Shown one piece after another: positions 13,336 to 28,829 of a stretch of DNA of 64,000 bases (positions are counted from its first letter, which is position 1; each line of letters opens with the position of its first letter). A model generated the notes under the pieces. That model saw only the letters and a program-made list of their open reading frames with translations, made no database searches and was not told the origin of the DNA. The DNA comes from Enterococcus mundtii (GTDB lineage Bacteria; Bacillota; Bacilli; Lactobacillales; Enterococcaceae): positions 372,001 through 436,000 of the forward strand of contig NZ_CP025473.1 of NCBI RefSeq assembly GCF_003957375.1. Direction: 5' to 3'. Both the position numbers and the translations under genes were made by a program.

Positions 13336-13716
13336 TTAATACAACATAGTTAAAACATTTTTTGGTACTTGCTTTTCATTAATCGTTGTTGGTCCAGAGG
13401 TTACTCGTTTTTGGCTGACCTCTGCTTTGACAAAACTATTTGGTTCTAATGGTGTTGGATTTTCTGAGGCGATTGTATAAGGCAATTTGACCGTTTTGCC
13501 ATCTTTAGTGACAAAGGTCAATTCATAGTCATATGCTTTCCAATTCCACATTTTCTCTCCGCTAGAACTCAACGCATCAGTTAATGGTGGTACTGTTTCT
13601 GGTACTTTTGCATAGGCAACCTGGCTGTTGTAGGTTTGATCATAATATTGATAACCTTTGTAACCACCAAATAACAACAATAAGAGAGCAATTGTTCCAA
13701 TCAATTTTTTCATCAT
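13336..13716 (-). CDS. YxeA-family secreted/membrane-anchored protein
   Basis: Small protein of about 126 residues with an N-terminal hydrophobic segment (KKLIGTIALLLLLFGGY) that acts as a signal or anchor, then an extracytoplasmic beta-rich domain with the pattern YDYELTFVTKDGKTVKLPY. This matches the YxeA (DUF1093) family. Three candidate starts lie within 9 bp (13722, 13716, 13713); 13716 has the best spacing to AAAGGA. A second YxeA-like protein is encoded at 59864-60241 beside an ABC transporter, whereas this copy stands alone. Function unknown; some relatives sit in peptide-stress operons. Confidence 0.75.
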   Translation of the reverse strand: MMKKLIGTIALLLLLFGGYKGYQYYDQTYNSQVAYAKVPETVPPLTDALSSSGEKMWNWKAYDYELTFVTKDGKTVKLPYTIASENPTPLEPNSFVKAEVSQKRVTSGPTTINEKQVPKNVLTMLY

Positions 13717-13842
13717 ATCCATCCTTTTATGATTCTTGATATATCCAATTATCGCCGATTGATAAAGTGTTTGAAAATCGAAAAACGTGACAATTTTGAA
13801 ATATTATTAAAATAATGCCATTCAGACTCGTTCAGTATCTGT

Positions 13843-13871
13843 TTGACATTCTGACAACCGCTTGCTATAGT
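13843..13871 (+). promoter_or_regulatory. Strong promoter of the MutS2-like gene leader
   Basis: TTGACA (13843-13848), 17-bp spacer and TATAGT (13866-13871): one of the best sigma-A-type promoters in the window. Transcription should start near 13878, about 255 nt upstream of the coding start. Confidence 0.85.
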
Positions 13872-13914
13872 AAAAAGGAAAAATAAATAAAACCTAGATG
13901 AACGAGGTATTTTG

Positions 13915-13935
13915 ATGAGTGTAGTAGGTATCTAA
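13915..13935 (+). CDS. Putative leader peptide MSVVGI
   Basis: ATG AGT GTA GTA GGT ATC TAA, preceded by GAGG with 7-nt spacing. Its ATG overlaps the stop of an even smaller frame (MNEVF, 13898-13915) that has no well-spaced ribosome site. The ORF overlaps one strand of the leader's main stem, the usual position for an attenuation peptide. No protein evidence is available. Confidence 0.4.
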   Translation: MSVVGI

Positions 13936-14026
13936 TCGAGTAAGTTGAATAACCAATAAAGCAGTAGGCTTATTTGGTGTGCTTATAGATGGTACCTGTC
14001 TGAAACATTTCTTGTAATCAAATCAA

Positions 14027-14066
14027 GGGGAGGACATGTCTTATTTTAGCTGTGTCCTGCCCTTTT
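14027..14066 (+). terminator. Terminator inside the MutS2-like gene leader
   Basis: GGGGAGGACA pairs with TGTCCTGCCC (one G/G mismatch) across a 16-nt loop and is followed by TTTTATT. It lies between a strong promoter and the gene that promoter should serve. Confidence 0.75.
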
Positions 14067-14132
14067 ATTCTATTTTAGTTTAGGTCTTTATTTATTTTGG
14101 GGACAGGTATCTCTTCAAGAAAAGGAGAGAAT

Positions 14133-16016
14133 ATGAATCATACAATCAAACAATTACAATTTGAACAAATTAGAAAAGAAGTGGTTGCCCGAGCAATCGG
14201 AGATCACACGAAAGAACGTCTGGCAGAAATGTCAATCCCGACAAATCTTCAGACCGTAGAAACAAGACAAACAGAAACGAAAGAAGCCCGTACGATTTTA
14301 GAAAGTAGCCAGCACGTGCCCTTTATGGGGCTGACACGAATTGTGGCATTAACTGACCAAGTGAAAAAAGGTTTGATATTAAGCCCCGCTGAATTGATTG
14401 AATACGCCGATTTTTTAAGAAGCAGTCGAATGATCACTCGCTTTTTTGAAAAAAACCAATATCAAACGCCATTACTGTATGCGTACAGTAAAAATCTACC
14501 GGATCTTCAATCGATAGAGGACTTAGTTTATGAACAAATCAAGAACCAACAAGTCGCAGATGAAGCATCGAGAAATCTACGTAAAGTACGCAAACAAATC
14601 CAAACGGTAGAAAAAGAAATCCAAGATCGTTTGTTAAAATTTTTGCGACATCCTGGGAATAAAGAAATGATCCAAGAAGCGATGATCGTCCAAAAAGGGG
14701 AACACGCAACGATCCCAATCAAAGCGAGTTATAAAAATAAAGTAGCCGGAACGATCATTGAACAGTCGAATAAAGGCACGACGGTATTTATCGAACCAAC
14801 AGTAGTCGCTAAAGCAAGCGTACAACATCAATTATTGAAAGCAGAAGAAATTGCTGAAGAATATCAAATTCTAGCTAGCTTGACTGGCGCATTAGCTGAA
14901 AATGAACAGGCAATCGATCAAATCATCGAGACGGTCACCGTTTTTGATATTATTTTCGCACGTGGAAAATACAGTAGAGAGATCAATGGCATCACACCTA
15001 TCATCAATAAATCAGAACGCATCCATCTGAAACAAGCGAGACATCCACTGTTATCAGAAAAAGCTGTTCCCTTAGATTTTGATTTGGGTGCAGAATATCG
15101 TGGTTTAGTGATCACAGGTGCAAATGCTGGTGGGAAAACAGTTGTTTTGAAAACAGTCGGATTGCTGACGTTGATGGCAATGTTTGGTCTGCAAGTACCA
15201 GCAAAAGATGGAACAGAGCTTGCCGTATTCGACGAAGTCTTTGTCGATGTCGGCGACCAACAAGATTTAGCGAATGCATTGAGTACTTTTTCTGGACATA
15301 TGCAAAATATCGCACAGATTTTGAATAAAGTGGGTAGGAATACCCTAGTTTTACTTGATGAGATCGGTAGTGGAACAGAACCAACGGAAGGGGCAGCTTT
15401 AGCAATCGCGATCATGTCTGCGATTTACGAGAAAGGTGCGCTGATGGTTGCAACGACCCATTACGGCGAAATCAAAGAGTTTGCGGAACGACATGAAGAT
15501 TTTGTGCCGGCAGCAATGGCTTTTGACCGAGAAGCCTTACAACCAAAGTATCAATTACAGGTAGGGAAAACAGGGGAAAGCCAAGCATTGTGGATCGCTA
15601 AAAAAATGCAAATGTCAGAGGACTTGATCCAACAAGCTCAGCAGTATCTTTCTACGAAAGACTATTCAAGGGAAAAACGCCTATTCAAACAACAGGTGAA
15701 GAAGCAAGAAGTCAAGAACGAAGAAAAGGTTTTATTTTCAAAAGGGGATCGGGTATATGCCACCCAATACAAAAAAGAAGCATTAGTCTTTGAAGATACT
15801 GGCGAAGAAACGATCGTGATTTTTGTCGATAACCACAAAGAAACGGTCCTTCGCCAGCGTCTCCTTTTAAAAATGAGAGCAGAAGAACTTTATCCTGTAG
15901 GCTATGAGATCGATCATCTATTTACAGATTTTAAAACGAGAAAATGGGAGCGAGATATCGAACGTGGTTCAAAAAAAGCCCACAAAAAATTATTAAAAGA
16001 AACCCGTCAGCGTTAG
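14133..16016 (+). CDS. MutS2-like ATPase lacking the Smr domain
   Basis: MutS-family P-loop protein of 627 residues; the start at 14133 follows AAAGGAGAG. It has the MutS2 layout: an N-terminal helical core, long coiled-coil levers (residues ~150-280) and an ABC-type ATPase with Walker A TGANAGGKT near residue 329 and Walker B LVLLDEIGSGTEP near 407. Classical MutS2 (about 780 residues) ends with a Smr nuclease-like domain. This protein instead ends in a short basic tail (KKAHKKLLKETRQR), so it is a paralogue without Smr. B. subtilis MutS2 is known to act on collided ribosomes, and older work gave MutS2 an anti-recombination role. A ribosome-linked function would fit the attenuator-like leader, but that is inference. 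Confidence 0.85.
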   Translation: MNHTIKQLQFEQIRKEVVARAIGDHTKERLAEMSIPTNLQTVETRQTETKEARTILESSQHVPFMGLTRIVALTDQVKKGLILSPAELIEYADFLRSSRMITRFFEKNQYQTPLLYAYSKNLPDLQSIEDLVYEQIKNQQVADEASRNLRKVRKQIQTVEKEIQDRLLKFLRHPGNKEMIQEAMIVQKGEHATIPIKASYKNKVAGTIIEQSNKGTTVFIEPTVVAKASVQHQLLKAEEIAEEYQILASLTGALAENEQAIDQIIETVTVFDIIFARGKYSREINGITPIINKSERIHLKQARHPLLSEKAVPLDFDLGAEYRGLVITGANAGGKTVVLKTVGLLTLMAMFGLQVPAKDGTELAVFDEVFVDVGDQQDLANALSTFSGHMQNIAQILNKVGRNTLVLLDEIGSGTEPTEGAALAIAIMSAIYEKGALMVATTHYGEIKEFAERHEDFVPAAMAFDREALQPKYQLQVGKTGESQALWIAKKMQMSEDLIQQAQQYLSTKDYSREKRLFKQQVKKQEVKNEEKVLFSKGDRVYATQYKKEALVFEDTGEETIVIFVDNHKETVLRQRLLLKMRAEELYPVGYEIDHLFTDFKTRKWERDIERGSKKAHKKLLKETRQR

Positions 16017-28589: not shown

Positions 28590-28829
28590 TAGATGAATAA
28601 GGAATTAGACGATGAATAAAACGAAGTAGTGGGTAAAGCCAATGTTTCAGAAAGCTAGTGGTTGCTGTGAACTAGTACATGCTTTAGCGCGAATTACATT
28701 TTAGGAGTCTATGGCATGAAGCCACGCGACAGCGTTAAATGTTAGAGAGATATGTTTGGGAAACAAGCATATAATTTGGGTGGTACCGCGAATTTTCGTC
28801 CCTTGACTTGATTGTCAAGGGATTTTTTT
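28590..28829 (+). promoter_or_regulatory. Tyrosine T-box leader
   Basis: The T-box sequence GGGTGGTACCGCG is at 28778-28790, followed by the terminator TCCCTTGAC / GTCAAGGGA and T7 (28799-28829). The specifier codon is probably TAC (28676-28678) in AACTAGTACATGC, which matches tRNA-Tyr. Uncharged tRNA-Tyr would stabilise the antiterminator and switch tyrS on when tyrosine is scarce. Confidence 0.93.

Follow-up and report, generated by a model that had tools for sequence, protein, structure and literature searches.

Why should the gene for a second MutS2-like ATPase, one that lacks the Smr domain, be preceded in Enterococcus mundtii by a leader that resembles an antibiotic-responsive attenuator? 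The question arises in a 64,000-nucleotide (nt) stretch of contig NZ_CP025473.1 (positions 372,001 to 436,000 of the forward strand), referred to here as the window, whose positions are used throughout. The leader comprises the 255 nt before the gene, and the original prediction was that this arrangement makes the ATPase gene respond to slowed translation. We consider it likely that this leader acts as an erm/vmlR-type attenuator, responsive to ribosome stalling, for an inducible set of ribosome-rescue and drug-response genes. Judging from the sequences, a short upstream open reading frame (uORF) and the RNA that folds around it probably form a switch that turns on rescue and drug-defence genes upon ribosome stalling. 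The proposed type of control, uORF-controlled attenuation, has held up: the amino acids of the uORF are conserved, three RNA helices (A:B, B:C and P0, described below) are kept, and the same leader also stands in front of genes for efflux, ribosome-protection-like and ribosome-GTPase proteins.

The gene (14133-16016, forward strand) encodes a protein of 627 residues that contains a MutS core with ATPase and Walker motifs; its orthologue on a named E. mundtii contig is 96% identical. Structural alignment to Bacillus subtilis MutS2 (PDB 7qv3, 8qpp) gave 36% identity over 499 residues; the rows of the fold search beyond MutS2 and MutS proteins were set aside. Pfam returned MutS_V alone, with no SMR domain, and the alignment to the host's full-length MutS2 stops before the SMR region, in agreement with the description as a Smr-less MutS2-like ATPase. 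The structural model has beta strands at residues 540-581, and its alignment to 9a5o_B reaches residue 591 (overall rmsd 25.4). KOW profiles gave no hit. Compared with B. subtilis MutS2, as portrayed in the relevant passages of PMC10897456, the protein shares the MutS core with ATPase, has neither the SMR domain nor the long coiled-coil, and instead combines a KOW-like segment with a basic tail, RGSKKA, at its C terminus. By analogy with MutS2, it may split or rescue stalled ribosomes.

The near-consensus promoter of the original prediction is present at 13843-13871 (TTGACA-17-TATAGT with an extended -10 element, 11 of 12 consensus bases), with a likely transcript start near 13878. By eye, orthologues have a promoter-like sequence at the equivalent place; in a scan, promoter-like sites were not above chance (10 versus 7.9 ± 2.9 in shuffles). 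The predicted six-codon frame with its well-spaced ribosome site was equally recovered: the uORF at 13915-13935 reads ATG AGT GTA GTA GGT ATC TAA (MSVVGI) and follows the Shine-Dalgarno (SD)-like AACGAGGT at 13901-13908, a G-rich motif that, by eye, has similar spacing in orthologues.

Of 105 Enterococcaceae genomes searched at the protein level, 85 contained the gene, and all 85 copies are preceded by a uORF of 5 or 6 codons. It starts with GTG in 66 and ATG in 19, its second codon is AGT in all 85, its third is GTA, GTC, GTG or GTT in 84 and GCA in one, and it stops at TAA in 84 and TAG in one. Lack of conservation of the small frame had been named beforehand as a finding that would speak against the prediction; the uORF is kept in 85 of 85 Enterococcaceae leaders and in 40 of 40 leaders from other Bacilli. 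Across 194 uORFs, a count that takes in leaders found by a covariance model as well as near-identical relatives, serine occupies position 2 in 173 and is written with five codons (AGT 141, TCG 17, AGC 13, TCT 1, TCC 1); the exceptions are Leu (16), Thr (2), Arg (1), Ala (1) and Phe (1). These uORFs start with GTG (106), ATG (70) or TTG (18) and are 3-8 codons long, one being merely Met-Ser-Val; valine is common at position 3, and no run of one amino acid occurs. That Ser2 is written with codons from both the AGY and the TCN box indicates selection on the peptide, beyond that on the RNA alone. The pattern points to coding selection on the uORF, which, with its ribosome-binding site, is predicted to be translatable. 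The stop is TAA in 160, TAG in 34 and never TGA, so that release factor 1 could read all of them, although this preference may be just a pairing constraint. At three loci (L011, L018, L038) the last uORF codon is AAC for ATC, which breaks one A:B pair and keeps the uORF.

A sample independent of any leader model was drawn by searching 250 Bacilli genomes at the protein level; of the roughly 62 short-frame hits (a hand count), 40 short-form genes were fetched; "short" was judged by frame length alone, and the sample includes close relatives of one genus. The upstream regions were scanned for a uORF that has 4-9 codons, follows an SD sequence and pairs through its 3' end with a strand located 25-180 nt further on. 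When the helix had to have at least 9 pairs, 29 of the 40 short-form genes qualified, versus 9 of 200 shuffles and one of the 20 full-length mutS2 genes; raising the requirement to 10 pairs left 26 of the 40 short-form and 0 of the 20 full-length genes. One of the 29 automatic matches (L210) has the correct uORF and a chance helix. In the remaining 11 genes the uORF was recognised by eye (9) or by pattern (2), which brings it to 40 of 40. A uORF leader sets the window gene apart from full-length mutS2 genes, among which the same scan found it in 0-1 of 20.

The folding of the window leader is more stable than that of all 200 dinucleotide shuffles, both up to the terminator (13878-14070, z -3.68) and up to the gene (13878-14140, z -4.06). 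Segment A (13925-13935) spans the 3' end and stop of the uORF, and its GGTATC (13927-13932) pairs with GGTACC inside segment B (13988-14000, GATGGTACCTGTC), giving the anticipated stem with its 5' strand inside the small frame. Between A and B lies the P2/P3 hairpin (13940-13986) with a conserved internal loop, UUGAAUA / GYRUG. The expected terminator follows at 14027-14070, a stem-loop (14027-14062, -18.8 kcal/mol) with a T-rich tail. Segment C (14100-14113) is the alternative partner of B: its GACAGGTATC at 14102-14111 pairs with B at -19.6 kcal/mol (z -4.9). Such a second partner had been proposed, and both its presence and the conservation of B:C stand; what needs correcting is its role, since C most plausibly acts on translation. 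Two elements go beyond the original prediction. One is the long-range helix P0, a computed duplex, supported by a swap test, between 13879-13897 and 14079-14098, the latter downstream of the terminator. The other is a hairpin (14110-14130, -7.6 kcal/mol) formed by TCTCTTC and GGAGAGA (14110-14116 with 14124-14130), which sequesters the SD site of the main gene (14120-14127) and whose 5' arm overlaps C.

Comparison of leaders, which had been suggested as a test of the alternative stems, upheld them. On alignment A1 the stems P1 (A:B) and P3 pair in 93.3% of cells, and 45 cells changed on both sides, every one of them in P3; shuffles gave 12.5, and none of the 500 reached 45. On the model-fitted alignment A2, which leans towards its own structure and holds one false row (L043, plus strand, 20.6 bits), 10 of 11 pairs showed both-side changes (120 cells versus 30.6). 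An initial RNAalifold run had recovered P3 alone because MAFFT failed to align strands A and B well in every clade, and the named structure and A2 were used instead. Paenibacillus-type leaders have GUUCUUAAC(UAA) as A and (UUA)GUUAAGAAC as B, an independent compensation of A:B. The swap test of A against B was not significant (p 0.11, n=28), as expected where both sides are nearly invariant. For P0, cognate strands paired at -20.6 kcal/mol versus -14.7 for swapped ones (p 2.9e-12, 42 of 47 leaders, the window leader excluded; reversed control p 0.92). For B:C the values were -16.9 versus -12.8 (p 1.1e-7, 38 of 46), with a much weaker reversed control (p 0.031), and its z score lay below -2 in 71 of 83 MutS2-like leaders (mean -3.66). 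One leader (L099) was left out of the B:C z set as its start was not located; another (L065), which by eye has the uORF and B, escaped the parsing pattern and was left out of the 51-leader alignment and of the terminator, swap-test, B:C, SD-opening and read-through folding sets.

Blocking C lowered the cost of opening the SD site from 4.94 to 1.87 kcal/mol, versus 4.68 when other stretches were blocked; across 71 leaders opening became easier in 62 and harder in 3. In the window leader itself the effect was small (3.7 to 2.9 kcal/mol). Translational attenuators of the erm type alternate between 1:2 / 3:4 and 2:3 pairings, strand 1 being part of the uORF and strand 4 the SD region; their uORFs encode stalling peptides longer than 3-8 codons. 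The same mutually exclusive pairings are present in the MutS2-like leaders, and the conservation of B:C, taken with the freeing of the SD site by blocking C, follows the logic of translational attenuation, with 2:3 as the alternative to 1:2 / 3:4. What differs from the erm type is the uORF of 3-8 codons, the added terminator and P0, and the MutS2-like ATPase as the downstream gene.

Other genes were found behind the leader. An RsgA GTPase fused to a C-terminal RNHCP domain was confirmed at 8 of 8 uORF-led loci (L131-L135, L137-L139); no paper holding both names was found. Seven loci carry a Mef(A)-like gene of the major facilitator superfamily (MFS), all with an MFS or Mef profile hit far under the curated Mef cut-offs; in two of them (L143, L147) the transporter frame is broken and the leader uORF intact. 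Six loci encode a BpsA_C polyamine-synthase domain with an AdoMet decarboxylase: both Pfam domains occur in L145, L146, L151 and L180, the decarboxylase was assigned via NCBIfam in L150, and L169 has BpsA_C only. By eye, P0 in these six polyamine-type leaders closes before the terminator, not after it. GNAT genes follow the leader at 2 loci. A Tet-type ribosomal protection gene, under its curated cut-off, follows at 5 loci in 3 genomes (L152, L199 and L203 were scanned). Three of these loci (L152, L153, L182) are tandem repeats of one unit, made up of the leader with a Tet-type protection gene and an efflux gene resembling Tet(L); families were scanned for L152, and the other two have frames of the same length. 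Their contig matches an E. saigonensis plasmid (NZ_AP022824.1, 25,275 bases), where the gene bears the database label tet(36). A C segment near the start codon was found at 22 of the 37 additional MutS2-like loci, at the one GNAT locus tested and at all 3 Tet-type loci tested; in the last, by eye, it sits inside a terminator-like hairpin.

Covariance model R1, built on 51 non-redundant leaders, matched 84 of 103 Enterococcaceae genomes: 83 of 83 that bear the gene (two gene-bearing genomes lay outside the draw) and 1 of 20 that lack it (G101, before another gene). Among 395 Lactobacillales genomes R1 matched 84 and its successor R2 matched 88. In 398 Bacilli genomes R2 matched 10, of which 7 lie outside Lactobacillales, all preceding MutS2-like frames of 535-660 residues. 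Twelve loci (L210-L221) were scored weakly by R2: at E 0.1 its matches numbered 9 among 35 sources and fell entirely within those 12, with none in the 20 full-length mutS2 genes or in host loci L002-L004. The R2 scores of L210 and L215 are on the minus strand, these loci being stored unturned, likewise L216 and L217. Replicons of Acetoanaerobium (Clostridia), Paenibacillus and Cytobacillus show such a uORF by eye and score weakly with R2 (15-23 bits). The plasmid protein hits number 5; a Vescimonas hit, a 795-residue annotated MutS2, was not counted. The protein searches gave only the 85, the 40 and the plasmid hits; L131-L204 were found via the leader model, so the frequency of the leader among them is uninformative. 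Viral contigs yielded no relative of the MutS2-like protein. Elsewhere in the window, a DUF1093 protein of 128 residues (13336-13722, minus strand) is divergent from the leader, and a T-box leader at 28603-28806 (plus strand, 112.3 bits) exceeds the Rfam gathering score.

How would such a leader work? In growing cells the uORF would be quickly translated, the ribosome would depart, and A would pair with B; the terminator would then end most transcripts. In the remaining, read-through transcripts, C would help to hide the SD site of the ATPase gene. A ribosome stalled anywhere on the uORF would cover A and leave B free for B:C, which would draw C off the SD region and open translation. P0 would join the transcript's 5' end to the strand that immediately precedes C, and may keep C near B, as a pseudoknot with B:C. 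We infer, from the sequences, translation of the uORF and stalling on it, the nature of the inducing signal and the way in which terminator read-through is gained. A stalled ribosome would cover A wherever it stops on a uORF of 3-8 codons, a design that suits a general stalling sensor, and our best guess for the signal is elongation stress, whether from drugs that target the ribosome or from other causes. Since the uORF almost always begins with Met-Ser, drugs of the peptidyl-transferase centre (phenicols, oxazolidinones) are prime candidates. Chloramphenicol and linezolid arrest ribosomes best with a penultimate alanine and less well with serine or threonine, according to the passages of PMC8987054 on this point; by analogy, we hypothesize that Met-Ser-Val, with serine penultimate when valine is in the P site, could be an arrest motif. 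The ATPase could possibly also exert negative feedback by clearing ribosomes off its own leader.

The chief competitor is purely transcriptional: the stalled ribosome would free B to form an antiterminator with the 5' arm of the terminator, with a small hairpin at the apex, as proposed for vmlR, and C would be incidental. A strict finder placed a terminator in 47 of the 51 non-redundant orthologous leaders (the window's own was missed by it and by a general terminator scan, in the latter case probably because of its interrupted stem and long loop), and the MFS and most polyamine leaders have, by eye, a terminator and no C. B is also complementary to the terminator arm in part, at z < -1 in 24 of 47 leaders and < -2 in 7. 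Yet swap tests of B with the 5' arm as a general antiterminator showed no cognate preference (p 0.35, with linker 0.052, in a further test 0.074), no plausible pairing exists in two clades, and B:C is far better conserved, so we regard this explanation as unlikely. A cognate preference for the terminator arm did emerge for an extended B (p 0.0006) and for the 14 nt that follow B (p 0.0012); these values were discounted, as the segments may overlap the upstream bases of the arm. Reversed B was a poor control here, since it retains CTGTC.

Still less probable is an RNA that senses a protein or ligand. Here the internal loop between A and B would be the binding site, whether for the ATPase, for a ribosomal protein or for a small molecule, and the uORF would be secondary. 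The loop is indeed kept across Enterococcaceae and in several gene contexts, but the uORF is conserved at codon level, with its exchange of serine codons and its in-frame length changes, and by eye it persists in Bacillales leaders without a recognisable loop; nor did the leader (window and 8 loci) match Rfam at the gathering score, giving only weak matches below it. An amino-acid-starvation attenuator reading the Ser, Val or Ile codons of the uORF can be given hardly any weight: Ser2 is nearly invariant and Val3 common, yet there is no run of a single amino acid, and the identified downstream genes are not biosynthetic for Ser, Val or Ile.

Several observations weigh against a stalling attenuator as we propose it. 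Ser2 is missing from 14 of 166 short-form uORFs. On A1, P1 shows one-sided variation only, with no pair changed on both sides, and 12 of 83 MutS2-like leaders fall short of z -2 for B:C. When read-through transcripts were folded with the uORF blocked, SD opening was eased in 18 of 44 and hardened in 2; nested folding of entire transcripts is a weak test because P0 and B:C cross. With no cognate preference of B for the terminator arm, and no plausible pairing in two clades, read-through is left unexplained. Among the other gene families, C is near the start codon in 0 of 7 MFS loci (z -0.14 in L143) and at most 1 of 6 polyamine loci (z -0.04 in L150, -2.04 in L169 and 0.33 in L180), and it is absent from that place in the VLN-type leaders L198 and L204. 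C (GGCAGATATC or close) reaches z < -2 in 7 of the 8 RsgA leaders, but a gap of 79-99 nt separates it from the RsgA start; by eye, it is positioned upstream of a second small frame. The Tet-type uORF, MLR(S/G)IS(K/L), starts with Met-Leu-Arg in 5 leaders, and these leaders score weakest (37.9 bits with R1, 46.2 and 37.1 with R2); they are probably, not certainly, members of the family.

Among the closest known systems is the leader of the ABC-F gene vmlR of B. subtilis. In the passages of PMC9226507 that describe it, vmlR also has a very short uORF (MIN) in a first stem-loop, a further hairpin and an intrinsic terminator, followed by an SD-sequestering hairpin, which base-pairing would open in read-through transcripts; dual attenuation of transcription and translation is proposed there. 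The present leader differs in gene family and uORF, in its long conserved B:C helix and the P0 helix from the transcript 5' end, in being common to several gene families, and in that the antiterminator is unsupported in the swap test. Listeria monocytogenes rli80-hflXr, as presented in parts of PMC6310831 (which also mentions ermC), is likewise a uORF attenuator of a ribosome-splitter homologue, one that gives drug resistance; it differs in a 14-codon uORF with an RLR motif, in control at the level of transcription and in its HflX-like splitter. The RLR motif is absent from the window uORF (MSVVGI). The toiL uORF of Escherichia coli topAI resembles our case as one short uORF on which stalled ribosomes are proposed to open an SD site, and differs in sequence, gene, host and Rho-dependent termination; in the sections of PMC12121999 on toiL, at least five drug classes act via this one uORF.

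A search of the open-access literature returned no title or abstract describing this leader or a Smr-less MutS2 in Firmicutes. What is new is a leader family with its own mini-peptide and RNA architecture, and a gene set around an uncharacterised splitter-like ATPase; the logic is that of erm, vmlR and rli80-hflXr. More tentatively, we suggest that this may be an ancient, single class of leader RNA with a Met-Ser-Val/Ala mini-peptide, which makes a second MutS2-type splitter inducible by stalling, both across Bacilli and in at least one species of Clostridia. It would have been copied before ribosome GTPase, macrolide-efflux-like, tetracycline-protection-like, acetyltransferase and polyamine-synthase genes. 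The peptide start could then be a minimal arrest motif for peptidyl-transferase drugs (penultimate Ser, Ala or Thr) and the Smr-less MutS2 an intrinsic drug-tolerance factor.

As a natural arrest candidate, the M-S-V mini-peptide would be very short. The relevant passages of PMC11633108 conclude that B. subtilis likely has splitters besides MutS2, so that further ribosome splitters are being sought. The Smr-less MutS2, RsgA-RNHCP, GNAT and BpsA_C/AdoMet decarboxylase genes gain a testable function, and the shared RNA sensor suggests a way to mark a candidate translation-stress gene set. Our findings suggest that many Bacilli would carry a second, stress-inducible MutS2-like protein beside the full-length one.
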